Below are positions 841-62,345 of a DNA stretch of 64,000 bases, one piece after another. The stretch is taken from NCBI GenBank assembly GCA_017419165.1, contig JAFOLW010000028.1, positions 1 through 64,000 of the forward strand. The letters are read 5' to 3'. The position numbers were made by a program, and so were the translations under genes. Each line of letters starts with the position of its first letter. Within the stretch, counting starts at the first letter, position 1. Under the pieces are notes generated by a model. The model was not told the DNA's origin. It searched no databases and was given only the letters and a program-made list of their open reading frames with translations. Origin of the DNA: Erysipelotrichaceae bacterium (GTDB taxonomy: Bacteria; Bacillota_I; Bacilli_A; Erysipelotrichales; Erysipelotrichaceae).

Positions 841-846
841 TATAAT
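841..846 (+). promoter_or_regulatory. -10 box of leaderless addB promoter
   Basis: A perfect TATAAT ends 8 bases before the addB ATG at 855. No Shine-Dalgarno sequence fits in the gap, so transcription probably starts at or next to the start codon. The same arrangement recurs at eight other genes in the window. Confidence 0.6.
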
Positions 847-854
847 GAAATCAA

Positions 855-3218
855 ATGATGAAGATCGCAAAAGATATATTGGATCATTCTTTGATCATCT
901 GTCCGGATGAGACGAAGGAAGATCTGCTGAAACAGATGTATGAAGAAAAACTTCTTTGCGATGTGAAGTTCATGTCTTTGAACGAATACCGTAAGAAGAA
1001 GTGTTTTGATCATGATGACAAGGCACTGCGTTATCTCAAGGATCATTACGGTCTGACTGTCAATAATGCCAGGGAAATATTGGAGGCGATGTCGTTCGTC
1101 GATGCGGATAAGACATACGGAATTGAGAAGCTCGACCGGCTGGTCTTTTACCGGAAGAAGCTGGAAGAAGAAGGACTTCTGATCTTTGATCCGCTTTTTG
1201 AAGGAACACTGAAGGACAGGAAGGTCTATGTCCTGGGTTACGGGAAACTTAACAAAGAAGATGAGCGTCTGATCAAGGGCGAAGTGATCGCTTATGAAAA
1301 GAAGGATAAGACGTATGAAGTCTATGAATATGATCAGATCGAGGAGGAAGTGACCGCCTTATATGAGCGGATACAGGATCTGATCTTCTCCAAGGGCGTC
1401 GATATCAACAAAATCTATGTGCTGGGTGCCAATGAGGATCATTTTTCTTTGTTCCGGCGTTTCAACGATGCGTATCCGTTCACAGTCGAAGTTTTGAAGA
1501 AAGACAGTTTATACGGGACTAAGGCGGGAAAGGATTTCCTGGAACAGATCATGACCTTGGATAAGAAGGAACTTTATGATCTTTTGAGTGAAAACGAGGA
1601 TGAAGTTTCGGGGAAGCTCATTTCATTGATCAACCGCTATCCGGAAGATGAGCTTGCGGATGTCAGAGACCTCATCGAAGAGGATCTGAAACATATGAAG
1701 ATCTCTGCGGGACTGCAGAAAGATCTGGTCCGCTGTGTCGGCCTGTATCACCGTTTCGAAGACGACGACCACGTCTTCCTCCTGGGTTTCAACGACGCTT
1801 TTCCTGTCATGAAGAAGGATACGGATTATCTTACGGATTCTTTGGCAAAGATCCTGGATCTGTCACTGACGGAAGAAAAGAATGCCCTGATCAGGGAGAA
1901 TGTTTCATCTTATCTTTCCGGCATCGAAGATCTGCATATCTCTTACAGCAGGAAGACGCCGTTCCGGCAGTATGAGATCTCTTCGTTATTGGAAAAAGAG
2001 GAATACATCCTAAAGAAAGAAGATGTCGTTTTCACATCCTATAAGACCGATCAGGCTTTGCTTTCATATTGCCTGGATGAGGTCTACCGTTACGGCACGC
2101 TCGATGAGCGGCTGAGTCCGTTATATAAGACCGTGGATCCGAAAGCGTACCGCAGCTATGACAACCGTTTTTCCGGTCTGCGCAAGAATCAGACCGACGG
2201 GATCGGCAAGGTCGTCCTTTCGTTCTCTTCGATGGATCTTTTCTATAAGTGTTCCTTTGCCTACTATCTGAAGAACATCTTGCGTATCGATTCTTATGAT
2301 GATACGTTCTATACCAAGACCGGGACTTTATGTCACGATGTGCTCAAGGATCTGTTCACGGAAAAGGATTTCGATCTTGAAACATCATGGAAAAAGAATC
2401 TGAAGAAACTGCAGGATACGGGAAAAGGCTTTGAAAGTGAAAAGGAATCGTATTTCTTAAGCAGGTTTAAGGAAGAATTGAAAAAGGATGTCGGGATACT
2501 GAAGATGCAGAAGTCTTATTCGCATCTGGATCGGACGATGTGTGAAAACGAATTCTTCGTATGGAATGATGAGAAGATCGGTTTCAAGGGTTATATCGAC
2601 AAGGTGATGTATAAGGAACTGGAAGATGAAGTCATCATCGATGTCATCGACTATAAGACGGGAAATACGGTTTCGATCAAAGAGAGTCTGATGGAATTCG
2701 GACTGTCGATGCAGCTGCCTTCCTATATGTATCTTTTAAAACATTCCGGGATCTTTGATAAGAAACTGTCCTATGGCGGTTTCTATCTTCAGCATCTGAT
2801 CAACAACGATCTCAAATACGATGAGAAGAGGAATGAAGAAGAGATCAAGGAAGAGTCCATGAAGCTGGAAGGCTATACGACGGATGATCCGGGCAGACTT
2901 TCTTATTGCGACGAGAGTTTTTATGACGGTACTTCGAAGATCATCAAAGGCCTGCGGTTAAAAAAGGACGGCGGTTTCGATGCCCGCTCCAGGGTCATTT
3001 CGGATCAGCGGATCGATGAATTGATCGACCTGACGGAAGAGAAGATCGCAGATGCGGGAAGGGCGATCCTGAACGGGGAATTTGCGATCGATCCCAAAGA
3101 GATCGACGGGAACAATGAGTCCTGCCGGTTCTGTCCGTATGCGGGGATCTGTTATAAGCGGTATCGCGATGTGAAGCACCTTTCGTCGGAAGCGGAACAG
3201 GAGGAAGAAGATGATTGA
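855..3218 (+). CDS. addB: ATP-dependent helicase/nuclease subunit B (AddB/RexB)
   Basis: 787-residue AddB, partner of AddA in the helicase-nuclease that resects double-strand breaks for RecA-dependent repair. The C-terminal half has the RecB-like PD-(D/E)XK nuclease: Asp582 in GYIDKVM, then Asp599 and Lys601 in VIDYKTG. Cys466 together with Cys757, Cys760 and Cys766 (CRFCPYAGIC) forms the family's four-cysteine iron-sulfur staple. The N-terminal helicase-like part is degenerate, as in AddB generally, and the protein is shorter than the roughly 1,150 residues of Bacillus AddB. The next codon after 855 is also ATG (858), so the start is uncertain by one residue. It overlaps addA by 8 bases. Confidence 0.9.
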   Translation: MMKIAKDILDHSLIICPDETKEDLLKQMYEEKLLCDVKFMSLNEYRKKKCFDHDDKALRYLKDHYGLTVNNAREILEAMSFVDADKTYGIEKLDRLVFYRKKLEEEGLLIFDPLFEGTLKDRKVYVLGYGKLNKEDERLIKGEVIAYEKKDKTYEVYEYDQIEEEVTALYERIQDLIFSKGVDINKIYVLGANEDHFSLFRRFNDAYPFTVEVLKKDSLYGTKAGKDFLEQIMTLDKKELYDLLSENEDEVSGKLISLINRYPEDELADVRDLIEEDLKHMKISAGLQKDLVRCVGLYHRFEDDDHVFLLGFNDAFPVMKKDTDYLTDSLAKILDLSLTEEKNALIRENVSSYLSGIEDLHISYSRKTPFRQYEISSLLEKEEYILKKEDVVFTSYKTDQALLSYCLDEVYRYGTLDERLSPLYKTVDPKAYRSYDNRFSGLRKNQTDGIGKVVLSFSSMDLFYKCSFAYYLKNILRIDSYDDTFYTKTGTLCHDVLKDLFTEKDFDLETSWKKNLKKLQDTGKGFESEKESYFLSRFKEELKKDVGILKMQKSYSHLDRTMCENEFFVWNDEKIGFKGYIDKVMYKELEDEVIIDVIDYKTGNTVSIKESLMEFGLSMQLPSYMYLLKHSGIFDKKLSYGGFYLQHLINNDLKYDEKRNEEEIKEESMKLEGYTTDDPGRLSYCDESFYDGTSKIIKGLRLKKDGGFDARSRVISDQRIDELIDLTEEKIADAGRAILNGEFAIDPKEIDGNNESCRFCPYAGICYKRYRDVKHLSSEAEQEEEDD

Positions 3219-17666: not shown

Positions 17667-17713
17667 TGATGTTTTCTATTTGATTTTATTGATATGGTCT
17701 CTGAGAAAATTGA

Positions 17714-17896
17714 CGAAAATTGAAGGATGTCGTGCATATCCCGGTTATTGGAGCCGGCAGGATCAACGAACCTCTTTTGGCTTTGCTGGCGGTCAAGGGA
17801 AACTATATGGATCTGGTCGCAACCGGCAGAGCTTCAATTGCCGACCCACATTTCCCAAAGAAAATCAGAGAATCAAGCTGTGAGAATCTGAATTAA
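17714..17896 (+). pseudogene. Remnant of an old yellow enzyme-type NADH:flavin oxidoreductase
   Basis: A 60-codon open stretch ending at TAA 17894-17896 reads VVHIPVIGAGRINEPLLALL and then DLVATGRASIADPHFPKKIR. This is the FMN-phosphate-binding end of an OYE TIM barrel. Nothing upstream (a stop at 17711-17713) or downstream (no Fe-S cysteine segment) continues it. It is related to the same region of the gene at 11171 but clearly a different paralog. TTG at 17720 is the only plausible start, so it is almost surely a relic. Confidence 0.7.
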
Positions 17897-17905
17897 TTAA
17901 ACAAG

Positions 17906-18534: not shown

Positions 18535-19113
18535 GTGAAGGGAATCGCTGAAAACAAGAAGTTTATCACGACCTCAGAACTGAAAGACATGGGCTATTCC
18601 TATTACAGGATCGGTAAACTGGAAGAGGATGGCATCCTTTCCCGTGTAAATCGAAGCACATATGAAAACCTCATATACAAAGGGGATGAAAATGACTTTT
18701 TCAGCGCTGAAGCCTTTGTGCCGAGCGGTGTGATTTGTTTGATGAGCGCAGCCCGATATTACGAGCTTACCAATTATCTGCCGGATGCCGTGGATGTTGC
18801 TATTGAACGCAAGAAAAAGGTCAATACTCTGCCTGAATGGCCCAGGATCAGGATCTTCTATTTTGATCGATCCCGGATGGATCTTGGTGTAACTGAAGTA
18901 CAGGAAGGCAAGAACCGCTTCCATATCTTTGATATTGAGAAAACTGTAGTCGACATAATTTACTACAGGAATAAGATCGGTATAGAAGAGACGTCTGAGA
19001 TACTCAGAAATTACCTGAAACGAAAGGACAGGCAGATCGATATACTTTACGAGTATGCAAAGCGTCTGCGCTGTGAGAAGATCGTAAGAACATATCTGGA
19101 GGTTCTCGTGTAA
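18535..19113 (+). CDS. abiEi: AbiEi-type antitoxin, transcriptional autorepressor
   Basis: 192 residues: an N-terminal winged helix (FITTSELKDMGYSYYRIGKLEEDG) followed by the AbiEi C-terminal domain (VICLMSAARYYELTNYLPD, IFDIEKTVVDII). In type IV AbiE systems this protein represses the operon and neutralises AbiEii. The start is a GTG at 18535, preceded by TAGAGG; the overlapping ATG at 18533 runs into a stop. The gene is more AT-rich, with more AGA and ATA codons than its neighbours, consistent with transfer. It overlaps the toxin gene by one base. Confidence 0.85.
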   Translation: MKGIAENKKFITTSELKDMGYSYYRIGKLEEDGILSRVNRSTYENLIYKGDENDFFSAEAFVPSGVICLMSAARYYELTNYLPDAVDVAIERKKKVNTLPEWPRIRIFYFDRSRMDLGVTEVQEGKNRFHIFDIEKTVVDIIYYRNKIGIEETSEILRNYLKRKDRQIDILYEYAKRLRCEKIVRTYLEVLV

Positions 19114-20012
19114 TGAATGCTGATTCAGTGAAGTCTAGACTTAAGAATTTCGCAATAAAAAACGGCTGCACTTTCCAGGAGGCCCTTACATATTATGGGC
19201 TGGAGAGAACGATCTATCGGATCTCAGTGTCCAAATATGCGGAACACTTCGTATTGAAGGGCGGTATCTTTTTGTATGCGATATTCGATCGCAATTACGA
19301 ACGGGCAACAACAGATGTAGATTTGCTTGCAAGGCGTATATCAAATAGCGGAGAAGAAATGAAGAACATATTCCGGGATATACTTTCTCTGAACTGTGAT
19401 GATGCGCTTGTCTATGATACAGGTTCCATTGTCGTGGAAGATATCACTGAGTTTAAGGAATATCACGGTCTCCATGTTTCAGCAGCAGGATATCTTGATC
19501 GGACAAAAATCCCAATCGGCATTGATATCGGCTTTGGCGATGTGATCTATCCCGATGCAGTAAAAATGGACTTCCCCGTTATACTCGATATGGATCCGCC
19601 CAGAGTAAACGTCTATTCACTGGAATCATCTATAGCAGAGAAATTGGAAGCTATCATACATAACGGATATCTCAACAGCAGGTATAAGGATTTTTATGAT
19701 ATCTATGTCCTTTCACAGAGATACAAATTCTCATACAAAGCGCTTAGGGAAGCCGTTACAGAGACCTTTGAGAACAGGAAAACACAGATGACAATGGATT
19801 CTGCAGTTTTCGGGGATGAATTTCTGAACGATCCGATGCATCAGAAGAGATGGGATGCATTTTTGAAAAAGAAGAAAGCACATGTTCAGGTATCTATGGA
19901 AGAAATGATGGATCGAATAAAAGCTTTTGCCTCTCCATTGCTCAAAGGAATAGAAAAAGAAAAGTGGAGTCCTGAAAAAGGCATCTGGGAAAACGGCGAT
20001 TGCAATAATTGA
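19113..20012 (+). CDS. abiEii: AbiEii-type nucleotidyltransferase toxin
   Basis: 299-residue nucleotidyltransferase of the AbiEii/AbiGii family. The signature HFVLKGGIFLYAIF with YERATTDVDLLARR gives the GG and Asp-x-Asp catalytic pattern; IDIGFGDVIYPD and SIAEKLEAIIH are the later family motifs. Members cause abortive infection or growth arrest, probably by modifying tRNA. It starts within the stop of the antitoxin gene (TAATG). All family motifs look intact, so the pair is likely functional. Confidence 0.87.
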   Translation: MNADSVKSRLKNFAIKNGCTFQEALTYYGLERTIYRISVSKYAEHFVLKGGIFLYAIFDRNYERATTDVDLLARRISNSGEEMKNIFRDILSLNCDDALVYDTGSIVVEDITEFKEYHGLHVSAAGYLDRTKIPIGIDIGFGDVIYPDAVKMDFPVILDMDPPRVNVYSLESSIAEKLEAIIHNGYLNSRYKDFYDIYVLSQRYKFSYKALREAVTETFENRKTQMTMDSAVFGDEFLNDPMHQKRWDAFLKKKKAHVQVSMEEMMDRIKAFASPLLKGIEKEKWSPEKGIWENGDCNN

Positions 20013-23114: not shown

Positions 23115-23132
23115 TGCTAGAATCATAGTTGT

Positions 23133-25299: not shown

Positions 25300-25338
25300 G
25301 TGTTTCCATCGAAGAAAAATGCGCTATGATTGTAGGGC

Positions 25339-28486: not shown

Positions 28487-29292
28487 AAGACGTGCCTCCG
28501 GACGAATTTGGCGAAACCGTCTTGCGCGCAGCCTTCTTCGGTGACGTATTCGGCGATTTTTTTGGTGTTCTCGTTGCCGTCGGAAAGACAGACGCCGTGG
28601 CTGATCTTCAGCATCTCGTTGTCGTTGTCCGTATCGCCGAAGGAAAGGACGTCATCCATGGAAATGCCGTGCATAGCGCAGTATTGTTTCAATGCATAGC
28701 CTTTGTTGGAATTTTTATGGGAGAATTCCAAAAGGTCTTTCTGCGTATTGAAGCCGATGTAGGGCTTGTCTTTGAGCAGTTTGAGTTTTTCATGGATCGC
28801 TTCATCGTATTTCAGATCGTAGCGGAACATGATGCCGCAGTTATCCTGGCCATAGAAGACCGACAGGTCATCGGTGACTTCGTATTTCCGGCGGTTCTTG
28901 TAGGCGGAATACCAGGCACGGTCGGTATCGCTGGAGGCGATGTAGCGGCCGGGCAGATACATGTGGATATTGGCATCGAATTCAGCCATGAAATCGATGA
29001 TCTCTTTGATCCATTCTTTTTTCAGTCTGTTGAACTCGTAGTGTTCATCGCTGCTGAAGTCGATGAGCTGGCAGCCGTTCCAGCCGATGATGAAATCGAA
29101 TTGCCGGTGAGCGTTCCAGATCTTATATTTGTCGGTCAGGTCATCTGCCGGCCGTCCGCTGGCCAGTCCGAAAAGGATGCCTTTATCCTGGATCGCTTTG
29201 ATCGTATCCAGGGTGTAAGCGGAAGGATTGACGGCAGTCTTGGCGAGCGTGCCGTCGATGTCGGCGGCGATGACTTTGATGTTTTCGAACAT
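28483..29292 (-). CDS. HAD-IIB (Cof-type) phosphatase
   Basis: 269 residues with motif I IAADIDGTLAK, motif II FGLASGRPAD, Lys of motif III in NSNKGYALK and motif IV SFGDTDNDNEML. It is a paralog of the following gene and the first of the operon. A TATAAT on the minus strand (29301-29306) ends 8 bases before the ATG, indicating a leaderless transcript divergent from the Gfo/Idh gene. Confidence 0.9.
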   Translation of the reverse strand: MFENIKVIAADIDGTLAKTAVNPSAYTLDTIKAIQDKGILFGLASGRPADDLTDKYKIWNAHRQFDFIIGWNGCQLIDFSSDEHYEFNRLKKEWIKEIIDFMAEFDANIHMYLPGRYIASSDTDRAWYSAYKNRRKYEVTDDLSVFYGQDNCGIMFRYDLKYDEAIHEKLKLLKDKPYIGFNTQKDLLEFSHKNSNKGYALKQYCAMHGISMDDVLSFGDTDNDNEMLKISHGVCLSDGNENTKKIAEYVTEEGCAQDGFAKFVRRHVL

Positions 29293-29300
29293 ACGTCATC

Positions 29301-29334
29301 ATTATAGCATTGAGTCTTCTTTTCCATGTACAAT
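29301..29334. promoter_or_regulatory. Divergent pair of leaderless promoters
   Basis: ATTATA at 29301-29306 is a minus-strand TATAAT serving the HAD gene start at 29292. TACAAT at 29329-29334 serves the plus-strand ATG at 29341, only 6 bases further. The two start codons are just 48 bases apart. Confidence 0.55.
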
Positions 29335-29340
29335 GGAGAT

Positions 29341-30318
29341 ATGGATAAGATCAATATCGGTATCATCGGTTCAGGATTCATCGTTCCTGTTTTCATCGGC
29401 GCCTGCAGGCAGTTCGATGTCTTTCATCTGCGGGCGATCTGGGGAAGGCATGAGGAAAAGCTCCTGCATTTCAAGGATGAGGTCGATTATCATACGACCG
29501 ATCTGGAAAAGATCATGGCCGATGAAGACATCGATGTCATTTATGTGGCACTGCCCAACAAGCTGCATTACGAATATGCCCTGAAGGCTCTTGAACATGA
29601 CAAGCACGTCATCGTGGAAAAGCCGTTCACCGTTTACCACAAGGAAGCCAAGAAGCTCATCGGCCTGGCGGAAACGAAGGGAAAGATCATCTTCGAAGCC
29701 ATACCTTCCGGCTATTCCGTGCCGTACAAGGAAGCCAGGGAACATCTGGATGAGCTCGGTGAGATCCGCCTTGTCATCTGCAACTTCTCGCAATATTCAA
29801 GGCGCTATGACAAGTTCAAGAACGGCATCGTCCTTCCGGCGTTCGACAAGAAACTGGCCGGCGGGGCTTTGATGGATCTCGGGGTCTATAACGTGCGCTT
29901 CGTGATCTCCGCCTTCGGCATGCCTAAAAACGTCGAATATCGCGCCAATAAGAGAAAAGGCGTGGATACTTCCGGTGTCCTGGTCATGGATTACGGGAAG
30001 TTCAAGGCGGTCTGCATCGCGGCGAAGGACTGCAAAGCGGAATCGTACGGTCTCATACAGGGGGATCAAGGCTATCTTCGCTGCAACACGACGACCAGCC
30101 GTGCGGCCGATTTGACTTTGCATCTCAATGACGGCAAAGAACTGTCGTTTACCCAGGAGGAACAGGGGGAATTCGCTTCCTGGAGCTATCAGTTGAAGGA
30201 ATTCATCCGGATCTATGAGCACATGGATCTTGAAAAAGCACGGGAATACAATGAGCTGACGCTGATCGAGACGAAGGTCATCGAAAAGGCTCTGAAGTCG
30301 GCGGGTCTGAATTATTAG
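29341..30318 (+). CDS. Gfo/Idh/MocA-family dehydrogenase
   Basis: 325 residues with an N-terminal Rossmann fold (INIGIIGSGFIVPVFI), the YVALPNKLHYEYALKAL segment and the EKPF motif that carries the catalytic Lys. The C-terminal beta domain is typical of NAD-dependent sugar dehydrogenases. I take the ATG at 29341, since an in-frame ATG at 29326 overlaps the -10 box. It is paired with a close paralog 10 bases downstream. Confidence 0.9.
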   Translation: MDKINIGIIGSGFIVPVFIGACRQFDVFHLRAIWGRHEEKLLHFKDEVDYHTTDLEKIMADEDIDVIYVALPNKLHYEYALKALEHDKHVIVEKPFTVYHKEAKKLIGLAETKGKIIFEAIPSGYSVPYKEAREHLDELGEIRLVICNFSQYSRRYDKFKNGIVLPAFDKKLAGGALMDLGVYNVRFVISAFGMPKNVEYRANKRKGVDTSGVLVMDYGKFKAVCIAAKDCKAESYGLIQGDQGYLRCNTTTSRAADLTLHLNDGKELSFTQEEQGEFASWSYQLKEFIRIYEHMDLEKAREYNELTLIETKVIEKALKSAGLNY

Positions 30319-42868: not shown

Positions 42869-43573
42869 CTATAAAGAAGCGATCTGCTTCAACATGGCCT
42901 GCAGCTGTTCCTCGTCCAGGCACAGATAGCCGCCTTCGTTCATCTTTTTGGCGGTCATGTGGACCTGGCCGGAACCGGCGGTCAGGATGACGTCCCTGAT
43001 GTTCTCGATGCGGACGCCTCCGCCCGGCAAGAACTGCAGCCGGTCGCCGTAGCTTTCAAACAGCCGGTGGATGTTCTTGCATCCGCCGAGGATATCGGGA
43101 TAGACGGCGGCACCGCTGGTCAATACGCGGTCGATCCCGCATCCGATCAGGGCGTTTGCCGCTTCATCGAGGTCTTTGGTCTCATCGAAAGCTTTATGAA
43201 AGACAGCTTGTGCATGATGAGAATGGATGAGCTCCGTCATCTTCTGTGTCCTTTCGCTATCGACCGTAAAGTCTGGCTGAAGGAAACCGAAGACGATGCC
43301 GTCCGCTCCGGCCTGCAGGAAGTTTTCGGCGTCTTTCAGCATCGTCAGATATTCGCTCTCGCTGTAAAAGAAATCGCCGCCTCTTGGCCGGACCATGCAG
43401 CAGATCTGTTTGCCGATCTTTTCCTTGAGGTATCTGAGGGTCTCCAAAGACGGAGAACAGCCGCCCAGTTCCAGGGCAGAATTGAGTTCGATCCGGTCGA
43501 TCGGGTATTTGTCTGCGAGCAGTGCATCGTCGATATTGCCGATGCAGATCTCGACTTGGATGTTGTTGATCAT
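42869..43573 (-). CDS. cutC: CutC family protein
   Basis: 234-residue TIM-barrel CutC. Motifs: VEICIGN at the N-terminus, RIELNSALELGGCSPS, CMVRPRGGDFFYSE, DGIVFGFL, FHKAFDET and DRVLTSGAA. It was named for copper tolerance, but its activity is unproven. A minus-strand TATAAT (43580-43585) ends 6 bases before the ATG, so it appears leaderless. It heads a run of four minus-strand genes. Confidence 0.92.
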   Translation of the reverse strand: MINNIQVEICIGNIDDALLADKYPIDRIELNSALELGGCSPSLETLRYLKEKIGKQICCMVRPRGGDFFYSESEYLTMLKDAENFLQAGADGIVFGFLQPDFTVDSERTQKMTELIHSHHAQAVFHKAFDETKDLDEAANALIGCGIDRVLTSGAAVYPDILGGCKNIHRLFESYGDRLQFLPGGGVRIENIRDVILTAGSGQVHMTAKKMNEGGYLCLDEEQLQAMLKQIASL

Positions 43574-43579
43574 ACCTAA

Positions 43580-43599
43580 ATTATAGCGTATGTTAATAT
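43580..43599. promoter_or_regulatory. Divergent leaderless promoters of cutC and the HAD fusion
   Basis: ATTATA at 43580-43585 is the minus-strand -10 for cutC, and TAATAT at 43594-43599 is the plus-strand -10 for the gene starting at 43606. Each lies 6 bases from its start codon, with no ribosome binding site. Confidence 0.5.
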
Positions 43600-43605
43600 G
43601 TAATT

Positions 43606-45171
43606 ATGATCAAGGGCATATTATTTGATATTGATGACACTCTCTTTTCCCATGAGACGGAAGAAGTGCCGAAGCAGACTTTGAAGGCACTCGACAAGCT
43701 GAAGGAGAAGGGCTATAAACTGGGCGTCTGCACCTCCCGGATCGCTGCCGAACTGGGGAAGTTTCCCAAAGACTTCCTGGAGCGTTTCGACTGCAAGATC
43801 ATCGGGACCGGAGCGACGACGATCGTCGAAGACGCATATTTCAAGAGCTATACGATCGACAAGGAGAAGGCGAGAGCCTATACGAAGTTTTTCGAGGATC
43901 ACGGGATCTCCTACCACTACGCTGACATCAACGGCGATGTGTACTACTGGGGCGATCTGAGCGAGGTCAATAACGGTCACTGGCTTTCTTATGCCAAGGG
44001 CAATGTCATGTTCAAGCCGTATGAGGACGAGGAAGTCACCAATCTGTTTTATTATCACGCCAAAGAGGAAGAGGTCCCTTTGATCGCACAGATCGATGAA
44101 GGAGCTCTGATCTCGACCTGGGGCAATTCCGGCAACATCTGCGCGCCGCTGGTCGACAAGAGCTTCGGTCTCTTGAAGTTCTGTCAGGTCTTTTCTTTCA
44201 CGACCGATGAGGTCGCGGCAGCCGGCGACGGCAGCAATGACGATGTGATGCTGCAGATGGCGGGGATCGGCATCGCCGTATCCGATGCCAAAGACAACAC
44301 CAAGGCGGCAGCGGACTATGTCTGCAAGAAGTCCATCGAGGAAGGCGGTCTTTACGATGCTTTCGTCGATCTCGGACTGATCGAAGAAGACCGTTACAAG
44401 ATGAAGATGTTCTGTTTCGACAACGATTCAACGCTGCTGGACCATGGAGTCCACAGATTCCATGAGAGCACTTTATCTTCCCTGAAAAAGCTGAAGGAAA
44501 AGGGCTATGTCCTGGCGATGAACACTTCCCGCTCCTATGAAGAACTGTTCAACATACCGCAGAGCGTCCTGGATCTGATGGACGCCCTGATCCTGCTCAA
44601 CGGTGCCTACATCGTGAAGAAGGGTGAAGTTCAGGTCAGTTATATCGAAGATGAGACCGTAAGGAAGCTGATCGCTTTCATGGATGAACATGAGATCCCG
44701 TACCGCTATTGTACGGATGACGGCAAGGGTTATCTGTCAGTCGATGATAAAGAAAAAGCGGCGTTGTTCGATATCCTTTACGGCATCATCCCGGAAGTCA
44801 AGAAGTATGAAGGAGAGAGGGTCATTCAGATCCTTTATTACGCGCAAGGCGATCTCAGGGAAGAGGTCATTTCCCTGGCAAAGGACTGCGAATGCGACCG
44901 TCTGGCGATCGCCGGGGAGATCTCTCCGCCTCACAAAAACAAAGGGGAAGCGATGCTGGAAGTAGCGGCGTCATTCGGCATTTCGCCGGAAGAGATCTGC
45001 GCCTTCGGCGACGGGGGCAACGACATCGAGATGCTGAAGCTGGCGGGCTTGGGCATTGCGATGGGCAACGGGGCAAAGGAATGCCGCTATGCGGCGGACT
45101 ATGTCACCGATAAGGTGTCGGAAGACGGTGTCTGTAATGCGTTGATCCATTTCGGATTCATTGAAAAATAA
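43606..45171 (+). CDS. Tandem HAD-IIB phosphatase (two fused domains)
   Basis: 521 residues made of two complete Cof-type domains. Domain 1 (about 1-262) has ILFDIDDTLFS, VCTSRIAAE and AAGDGSNDDVML. Domain 2 (about 268-521) has MFCFDNDSTLLD, MNTSRSYEE, the Lys-containing PHKNKGEAM, and AFGDGGNDIEML. Both keep the Asp nucleophile (DxDxT pattern), so both may be active. Single-domain relatives are at 27713 and 28483. Fusion of two HAD units is uncommon and suggests a pair of related substrates. Confidence 0.9.
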   Translation: MIKGILFDIDDTLFSHETEEVPKQTLKALDKLKEKGYKLGVCTSRIAAELGKFPKDFLERFDCKIIGTGATTIVEDAYFKSYTIDKEKARAYTKFFEDHGISYHYADINGDVYYWGDLSEVNNGHWLSYAKGNVMFKPYEDEEVTNLFYYHAKEEEVPLIAQIDEGALISTWGNSGNICAPLVDKSFGLLKFCQVFSFTTDEVAAAGDGSNDDVMLQMAGIGIAVSDAKDNTKAAADYVCKKSIEEGGLYDAFVDLGLIEEDRYKMKMFCFDNDSTLLDHGVHRFHESTLSSLKKLKEKGYVLAMNTSRSYEELFNIPQSVLDLMDALILLNGAYIVKKGEVQVSYIEDETVRKLIAFMDEHEIPYRYCTDDGKGYLSVDDKEKAALFDILYGIIPEVKKYEGERVIQILYYAQGDLREEVISLAKDCECDRLAIAGEISPPHKNKGEAMLEVAASFGISPEEICAFGDGGNDIEMLKLAGLGIAMGNGAKECRYAADYVTDKVSEDGVCNALIHFGFIEK

Positions 45172-56301: not shown

Positions 56302-56324
56302 TTCAGCGTATAATGAAGACAGAG

Positions 56325-60545: not shown

Positions 60546-60625
60546 TGGTGAAATGATTGTGATATATTTGTGAAAATGCGATTTTCCAAAGTGCGGAAAG
60601 AGGAACAGAGGTCTTATTGTATAAT
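60546..60625 (+). promoter_or_regulatory. ECF transporter promoter region with 11-bp direct repeats
   Basis: TGGTGAAATGA (60546), TTGTGATATAT (60557) and TTGTGAAAATG (60568) are spaced by exactly 11 bases, and a further TTGTGA may lie just upstream. TATAAT at 60620-60625 ends 7 bases before the ATG at 60633. The -35 is poor, consistent with activation. Repeats match those at 20857 and 31430. Confidence 0.55.
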
Positions 60626-60632
60626 TTAGAGT

Positions 60633-62345
60633 ATGGAACCGATCATTTCATTCAAGGATTTTTCATTTCAATATACGGCACAGAAACAGCCGACGCTCAA
60701 GAACATCGACCTTGAGATCTATCCGGGCGAGAAGATCCTGATCTGCGGTGCTTCCGGTTCGGGCAAGTCCACTCTGGGAAACTGCATCAACGGGCTGATC
60801 CCGTTCTCCCTGACCGGGAAGATGGAAGGGCAGTGCACCGTCGACGGGATAGAGACAAGGAATTCTTCGATCTTTGAACTGTCGACCCGTGTCGGTACGG
60901 TCCTGCAGGATCCCGACGGCCAGTTCGTCGGTCTGACCGTTGCCGAAGACATCGCTTTTGCTCTGGAGAACGACTGTGTGGAGCAGCAACGGATGAACGA
61001 GCAGATCCTGGAGGCGGCCAAGACCGTCAGCATCGAGCAGCGCCTGAAGAATGCCCCGTACGATCTTTCCGGCGGGCAGAAACAGAGAGTTTCGATGGCC
61101 GGCGTCATCGTCGACGATGTCAGGATCCTGCTGTTCGATGAGCCTTTGGCGAACCTCGATCCGGCGACCGGCAAGTCGGCGATCGAACTCATCGATCTGC
61201 TGAAGAAGGAGACCGATACGACGGTATTGATCATCGAACACCGTATCGAAGACGTCTTGTGGAAAAAGGTCGACCGCATCATCCTGATGGATGACGGAAG
61301 GATCGTGGCCGATCTGCGGCCGGAAGAACTGCTGGCTTCTTCTCTTCTGAAGGACCACGGTATCCGGGAGCCTTTGTATCTGACACTGCTGAAATATGCG
61401 GGTGCCGATCTTAAGAAGCTTCGGGGGATCGACGGGATCAATGAGCTCGTGCTGGATGAAAAGACCAAAGAGAATGTTAAAAGCTGGTATGCCCGGGCCA
61501 ATAAAGAAGAAGTCTATAACGACAACGATGTCATCCTGAAAGTGGAGGATCTCGATTTCTCCTATCAGGAAGGCGATCCGATCCTGCACAGCGTTTCTTT
61601 TGAAGTGAAGAAGGGCGAGATGATGGCGATCGTCGGACAGAACGGTGCCGGCAAGTCCACCTTATGTAAGGTGATCTGCGGTTTTGAAAAGCCGTCCAAG
61701 GGGAAAGTCTTCTTTGAAGGCGGGGACATCACGGAGGATTCCATCCGTTCCCGCGCATCCAAGATCGGTTACGTCATGCAGAACCCCAACCAGATGATCT
61801 CACAGGCGATGATCTTCGATGAGGTGGCGATGGGAATACGCAATACGGGCTTGAGTGAAGAAGAGATCAGGGAAAAGGTCTATGCGACGCTTAAGATCTG
61901 CGGCTTGTATGAGTTCCGCAACTGGCCGATCTCGGCATTGTCGTTCGGTCAGAAGAAACGTGTGACGATCGCTTCGATCCTGGTCATGGGACCGAAGATC
62001 ATCATTCTGGATGAACCGACAGCCGGTCAGGATTTTGCCCATTATACCGACATCATGGAATTCCTCAAGGAGCTGAACGGCAAAGGCATCACCATCATCA
62101 TGATCACGCATGACATGCATCTGATGCTGGAATATACAAAGAGGTCCCTGGTCTTTACCGACGGAAGGATCGTCGCGGATGCTTCCGGTTCGGCGGTGCT
62201 TTGCGATGAGGACCTGGTCAAAAAGGCATCTTTGAAAGAGACTTCTTTATTCAAGATCGCGACCGACTGCGGCATTGCGGATCCGGTGGATTTCGTCGAC
62301 TGTTTCATCGATTACGACAGGAAGGAGCGCGAACATGGCAAGTAA
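60633..62345 (+). CDS. ECF transporter ATPase, two fused domains
   Basis: 570 residues with two complete ATPase domains. Domain 1: Walker A GASGSGKST (39-47), signature LSGGQKQR (145-152), Walker B ILLFDEP. Domain 2: GQNGAGKST near 335, signature LSFGQKKR near 436, and IIILDEP. It corresponds to EcfA1 plus EcfA2 in one chain, as in YkoD-like proteins, and powers uptake of a vitamin or similar micronutrient. The gene appears leaderless and overlaps the EcfT gene by 11 bases. Confidence 0.92.
   Translation: MEPIISFKDFSFQYTAQKQPTLKNIDLEIYPGEKILICGASGSGKSTLGNCINGLIPFSLTGKMEGQCTVDGIETRNSSIFELSTRVGTVLQDPDGQFVGLTVAEDIAFALENDCVEQQRMNEQILEAAKTVSIEQRLKNAPYDLSGGQKQRVSMAGVIVDDVRILLFDEPLANLDPATGKSAIELIDLLKKETDTTVLIIEHRIEDVLWKKVDRIILMDDGRIVADLRPEELLASSLLKDHGIREPLYLTLLKYAGADLKKLRGIDGINELVLDEKTKENVKSWYARANKEEVYNDNDVILKVEDLDFSYQEGDPILHSVSFEVKKGEMMAIVGQNGAGKSTLCKVICGFEKPSKGKVFFEGGDITEDSIRSRASKIGYVMQNPNQMISQAMIFDEVAMGIRNTGLSEEEIREKVYATLKICGLYEFRNWPISALSFGQKKRVTIASILVMGPKIIILDEPTAGQDFAHYTDIMEFLKELNGKGITIIMITHDMHLMLEYTKRSLVFTDGRIVADASGSAVLCDEDLVKKASLKETSLFKIATDCGIADPVDFVDCFIDYDRKEREHGK

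Follow-up and report, generated by a model that had tools for sequence, protein, structure and literature searches.

Nine genes of the window, by which we mean the whole 64,000-nt stretch of DNA analysed here, start within a few bases of a sequence resembling a -10 promoter box (Table 1). This window comprises the initial 64 kb of contig 1 in an Erysipelotrichaceae genome (G000; 1.786 Mb, 77 contigs, 72.6% complete). Judged by the protein starting at 43606, its nearest named relatives are Erysipelotrichaceae bacterium RGIG2701 from goat omasum (86%) and Solobacterium sp. UBA3303 (84%); genomes like these we take to belong to the GTDB genus Bulleidia. Neither Rfam families nor tRNAs were found in the 64-kb window. 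A preliminary description had reported a -10 box 6-10 nt upstream of these nine start codons and no fitting Shine-Dalgarno (SD) sequence. A direct reading confirms a -10-like hexamer at this distance and no usable SD site at all nine, with a hexamer no more than one mismatch from TATAAT at every start except 43606, where it is weak. GGAG is present before 29341, but only 2 nt from the ATG (judged by eye). In that gene (29329-29341), as at a mutY locus (L144), the arrangement TACAATGGAGAT(A)ATG makes a -10 box and GGAG share the few bases in front of the start, which might thus be readable either way. The window has 50 genes that do not belong to the class; an SD-like site precedes 34 of them, and neither signal is present at the other 16.

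Table 1. Proximal -10-like hexamers at nine gene starts of the window.
Hexamer position	Strand	Hexamer	Distance to start codon (nt)	Start codon	Gene product
841..846	+	TATAAT	8	ATG 855	AddB-like PD-(D/E)XK nuclease
23118..23123	+	TAGAAT	9	ATG 23133	174 aa, no family match
25325..25330	+	TATGAT	8	ATG 25339	MFS transporter
29301..29306	-	TATAAT	8	ATG 29292	HAD-IIB/Cof hydrolase; divergent from 29341
29329..29334	+	TACAAT	6	ATG 29341	Gfo/Idh/MocA oxidoreductase
43580..43585	-	TATAAT	6	ATG 43573	CutC
43594..43599	+	TAATAT (weak, 4/6 matches)	6	ATG 43606	Double HAD protein
56309..56314	+	TATAAT	10	ATG 56325	MutY
60620..60625	+	TATAAT	7	ATG 60633	Fused two-domain ECF-type ATPase

The ATG at 29292 is preceded, one codon away, by an in-frame stop, and the open frame there (270 codons) barely exceeds the protein (269 aa); an upstream start is therefore impossible. 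At 60633 an in-frame TAG occupies the same position (open frame 571 codons, protein 570 aa), and the open frame is 571 codons in nine further genomes of the genus too. Slightly longer ORFs exist for 25339 (from 25326), 56325 (from 56313) and 29341 (from 29326). The ATGs at 25326 and 56313 overlap the -10 hexamer and that at 29326 precedes it, and therefore none of them could be transcribed from the proximal promoter. Genes were called with a simple caller of our own, which uses a hexamer coding score and picks the start on coding score alone, blind to SD sites and promoters. Combined with a filter for at most one mismatch to TATAAT and a hexamer ending 5-10 nt before the start, it recovered seven of the nine starts blindly. 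The start at 29341 was missed because the caller preferred the upstream ATG at 29326, and 43606 because of its weak -10. Three extra starts (392, 6358 and 20950) were also flagged, and their membership of the class is doubtful.

Two of the arrangements are divergent, with start codons separated by 48 bp at 29292(-)/29341(+) and by 32 bp at 43573(-)/43606(+). A promoter scan of 29200-29420 found none. The second pair was aligned with loci L025 and L026 (84-86% protein identity), and in both the 32-bp gap and the two 6-nt spacings are kept. The minus-strand TATAAT of 43573 is kept in both as well, and the plus-strand hexamer of 43606 reads TAAGAT in both, with TGT in front. Two further loci, L027 (28% identity, AAAGGAG before the start) and the truncated L028, were not part of the alignment. 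The 521-aa protein encoded at 43606-45171 consists of two fused HAD-IIB domains and is full length in two named relatives too. The 570-aa protein at 60633-62345 is likewise a fusion, of two ECF-type ATPase domains with a DUF3744 linker, and is complete or almost complete in 24/36 genomes of the genus. Elsewhere in the window, an AbiEi-like antitoxin and an AbiEii nucleotidyltransferase toxin form a type IV toxin-antitoxin pair (18535-20012), preceded by about 950 bp without a called gene. A short open stretch at 17700-17900 resembles the C-terminal end of a flavin oxidoreductase, and is perhaps a gene remnant adjoining the AbiE pair.

The genome of the window was sampled as the window itself plus 20 further stretches (310.8 kb including 6,111 N, 290 genes, 17% of the genome). 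In this sample the histogram of distances between near-consensus -10 boxes and starts, a check that the preliminary description had proposed at genome scale, peaks sharply at 6-9 nt. In 31 of 290 genes a near-consensus -10 ends 5-9 nt upstream of the start codon, compared with a mean of 8.4 (sd 3.3, maximum 17) in 100 dinucleotide shuffles of the same genes' upstream regions. The excess over chance amounts to about 8% of genes; about 8 of the 31 members are expected by chance, so that single genes in the class are unproven. SD sites are excluded from the class, being found in 0/31 of its genes in this genome and in 50% of all genes. Widening the range to 4-11 nt gave an SD-like site in 1/38, and across seven genomes of the genus (g1) an SD was present in 1/103 class genes. 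In the whole genome, TATAATN{6,8}ATG occurs 108 times forward and 7 times when the pattern is read backwards. TATAATN{20,22}ATG did not qualify as a neutral control for spacing, since that is where ordinary leadered promoters lie, and it served only as the denominator of a ratio. A positive control was weak (2/36 plasmid genes of Deinococcus deserti matched, at 7 and 8 nt), and a run on E. coli matched 1/38 genes (at 9 nt). No 16S gene of the genome's own was found from which to read the anti-SD.

The excess differs between lineages. Within genus g1 it was found in 7/7 sampled genomes with at least 34 genes, including that of the window (z 4.4-6.9); genome G009 (22 kb, 16 genes, 2 matches against a background of 1.1) was left out of the enrichment and SD counts as too small. 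Samples outside g1 were small (20-128 genes), and in these the excess was absent from four of six other genera of the same family (f1) and from three genomes of a neighbouring family, f2. Genus g24 gave z of 3.4 and 2.1 and g26 gave 1.6, while g35, g34, g28 and g31 ranged from -1.2 to 0.6. The three f2 genomes had 0-1 class genes each (z -0.5 to -1.8), and families f3 and f9 gave z of 0.2 and -0.1. In the AT-rich families f4 and f5 counts equalled those of the shuffles (z 0.3 and 0.5), and the -10 word is uninformative there. Stretches of G339 were dropped (GC 0.00, no genes). A stronger excess than in g1 was seen in family f8 of the same taxonomic class (G238 and G272, stretches L061-L068 and L129-L136; GC 61-62%), with z of 16.4 and 12.1. 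The whole-genome ratio of TATAATN{6,8}ATG to TATAATN{20,22}ATG agrees in part with these scores: the genome of the window scores 1.69, g24 gives 1.55 and 1.71, and ten f2 genomes range from 0.75 to 1.05. The ratio is untidy, however, reaching 1.36 in G207 and 1.33 in G317, yet neither has a class gene in its small sample. In G181 and G296, which lie outside the gene samples, it is 1.27.

A start-base signature was examined in 107 class genes pooled from the seven g1 genomes (spacing 5-10 nt, no SD). The commonest spacing is 6 nt (45 genes); with the hexamer taken as -12 to -7, this therefore places +1 on the A of the ATG. Transcription prefers to start at a purine preceded by a pyrimidine, and T or C is found at -1 in 41 of these 45 genes. 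Across the class, A at -1 is depleted compared with SD genes (8/107 vs 107/360, p = 7e-7). At spacings of 7-9 nt, G is the 7th base after the hexamer in 25/56 genes, where 7.4 would be predicted from the corresponding positions of SD genes (p = 8e-9), which suggests leaders of 0-3 nt. The pyrimidine at -1 and the G at the 7th base both fit a polymerase start at the 7th base. Ordinary promoters do not pin that base, since in SD genes whose -10 is 16-40 nt away, positions 7, 8 and 9 carry G equally often (38, 38 and 35 of 125). The dinucleotide TG lies one base 5′ of the hexamer in 29/107 class genes. A point against the promoter reading is the weakness of the -35 boxes, whose best match to TTGACA is most often 3/6.

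Class genes are biased towards first genes, defined as those more than 40 nt from their upstream neighbour or with a divergent one (85/107, vs 151/360 SD genes; Fisher p = 6e-12). Conservation is partial. The g1 samples contain 65 reciprocal-best pairs, of which 10 were class-class, 5 class-SD and 5 class-unclassified. Half of the class-class pairs link two closely similar genomes, G013 and G023; the other five have 54-68% identity and represent three gene families, with the spacing the same in some and shifted by 1-3 nt in others. At least one class-unclassified pair is a start miscall (G023, L035:234), in which an ATG slightly upstream has a close TATAAT. A search of the family for mutY gave some match in 74/76 genomes. 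Among the 30 loci listed, 11, which include that of the window and a doubtful one (L155), have a listed start with a near-consensus -10 at 5-10 nt and no SD, and in 8 of the 11, L155 among them, the spacing is exactly 6 nt. Ten of the other listed loci have SD-like sites and nine have neither, and therefore the start mode of mutY differs between genera. The exact arrangement TGnTATAAT-6 nt-ATG occurs at 4 of the 30 listed loci. In G335, of genus g35, the -10 lies six nt before the mutY ATG, and in the g35 sample G343 the class comprises 1/56 genes.

The preliminary description had suggested that leaderless starts serve repair, HAD and transport genes, a bias for which we find no support. In the window's own genome, 24 class genes lie beyond its borders. 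Ten of these, hand-picked and partly chosen for familiar-looking N-termini, were scanned for function; they include core genes (parE, murD, typA) and encode ScpA, AsnA, TypA, an acylphosphatase, ParE, MurD, an FtsE-like ATPase, TsaE, Rex and one protein without a match. Together with the AddB-like, MutY, CutC, HAD and ECF-type ATPase proteins of the window, these make the class a general one, not confined to repair or transport. No multi-S1-domain frame was found at E 0.001 in 19 g1 genomes, 10 of them at least 90% complete. In 12 f2 genomes such a frame was found only in G041 and G046, which serve as internal positive controls. Loss of ribosomal protein S1 was rejected as a sufficient cause of the class, as f2 genomes without the class (G039, G044 and G047) lack S1 too; it may permit leaderless use but does not explain it.

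It is very likely that g1 as a whole genus possesses a real class of genes with leaderless or near-leaderless mRNAs, produced by sigma-A-type promoters whose -10 box directly abuts the coding sequence. RNA polymerase would initiate near the 7th base past the hexamer, so that the mRNA would begin on the A of the start codon at a spacing of 6 and 1-3 nt earlier at spacings of 7-9, with no SD in either case. By analogy with E. coli, the ribosome may then start on the 5′-terminal AUG by the 70S, IF2-dependent route known there. For the class genes, both the 5′ ends of the transcripts and the way they are translated are predictions from sequence. Leaderless initiation would be a standing mode in g1 for about 8-11% of genes, mostly those first in transcription units, and about half of all genes, typically operon-internal ones, have an SD. 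As to the earlier suggestion that this organism uses leaderless mRNAs routinely, the statistics bear out a recurrent genome-wide class, mostly of first genes, standing beside SD-led genes.

Other explanations of the same pattern were considered. AT-rich intergenic DNA might yield TATAAT-like words near starts by chance, as the shuffle-like counts in AT-rich f4 and f5 illustrate. However, the genome of the window is 50% GC and lies above every one of its 100 shuffles, the excess in f8 is found at a GC of 61-62%, and in AT-rich f2 genomes only 1/71 and 0/61 genes have a -10 this close, fewer than their shuffles give on average. We consider chance extremely unlikely. For the class as a whole it is refuted by the shuffles and the AT-rich f2 genomes; this does not extend to single genes, for example those at 392, 6358 and 20950.

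It is very improbable that the proximal -10 boxes are real but the annotated starts wrong, with translation beginning at an SD-led codon downstream. The gene caller may choose an overlong ORF, and 12 of the 107 class members start with GTG or TTG, which could be read in this sense. Nevertheless, within the 19 codons that follow, an SD-led start is found no more often in the class (4/107) than in SD genes (17/360). In all ten class-class ortholog pairs the alignment of the proteins begins at residue 1, and a comparison by eye of the 14 codons that follow the ATG of 43606 shows synonymous changes only in L025 and L026. The boxes could also be secondary promoters, the main transcripts coming from further upstream with ordinary leaders in which the SD is absent or weak. 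Some class members do sit 40-60 nt behind a gene, but this too is a highly unlikely account of the class, given that all 31 members in the genome of the window lack an SD and that divergent gaps of 32 and 48 bp would force a longer-leader promoter into the neighbouring gene.

Leaderless initiation is a known but unevenly spread mode, treated in general in the available text of PMC5397173, and 21.6% of bacterial species are cited as predicted leaderless users in PMC9581028. The available text of Zheng et al. 2011 (PMC3160421) reports a TA-led signal in 207/953 bacterial genomes: TANNNT about 12 bp (10-12) upstream, without an SD and beside SD-led genes, as in g1. In its low-GC Firmicutes the motif is TAtAAT, in several genomes with a TG peak in front, which is partly seen here (29/107). 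Those Firmicutes cases are concentrated in Lactobacillales and Mycoplasma, and no Erysipelotrichaceae are named in the text available. The same survey describes leaderless classes with a proximal -10 in Actinobacteria (about 20% of genes) and Deinococcus-Thermus (about 40%), compared with 8-11% here. Streptococci have 8.6-9% leaderless mRNAs by dRNA-seq, with 81% of the S. pyogenes set common to S. agalactiae (available text of PMC6431027); the fraction is similar to that in g1 and conservation between species is a common feature, but the streptococcal set is experimentally mapped and belongs to another order. Mycoplasma pneumoniae, which also lacks S1, has 16% leaderless-like transcripts (5′ UTR of at most 8 nt), but an SD in only 8.1% of genes compared with about half in the genome of the window (available text of PMC10568206). 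A leaderless fraction or count is given for M. gallisepticum in PMC4245973, and leaderless transcripts are below 1% in enterococci according to the part of PMC7724050 available. The usual view that leaderless mRNAs are rare in Bacillota, cited in the preliminary description, is therefore too broad and only in part correct, given the fractions in streptococci and M. pneumoniae. In the literature searched, no earlier report of leaderless genes in Erysipelotrichaceae was found, although the GeneMarkS-2 survey may already include such genomes. Neither mapped RNA 5′ ends for the family nor a transcription-start-site study of Solobacterium moorei was found, and in the available text of PMC10783764 Erysipelotrichia appear solely in an anti-SD table.

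Taken together, these data would add a lineage to those that use leaderless initiation. Start-site annotation in such gut MAGs may err if tools demand an SD. Moreover, antibiotics that spare leaderless translation exist (available text of PMC9581028) and could act unevenly in g1. A more tentative idea, which we hold to be possible though on balance unlikely, is that genera of a single family have switched between SD-only initiation and a mixture of SD-led and leaderless first genes, with S1-less ribosomes, and that some genes, mutY above all, are leaderless even where the general class is absent. If so, the family would serve as a natural experiment on the origin of leaderless initiation, and leaderlessness itself would be selected for genes such as mutY, for example for translation when 30S initiation is limited. 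The genus and its sister groups provide a close comparison for what makes a lineage adopt leaderless initiation, one that already argues against S1 loss as a sufficient cause.
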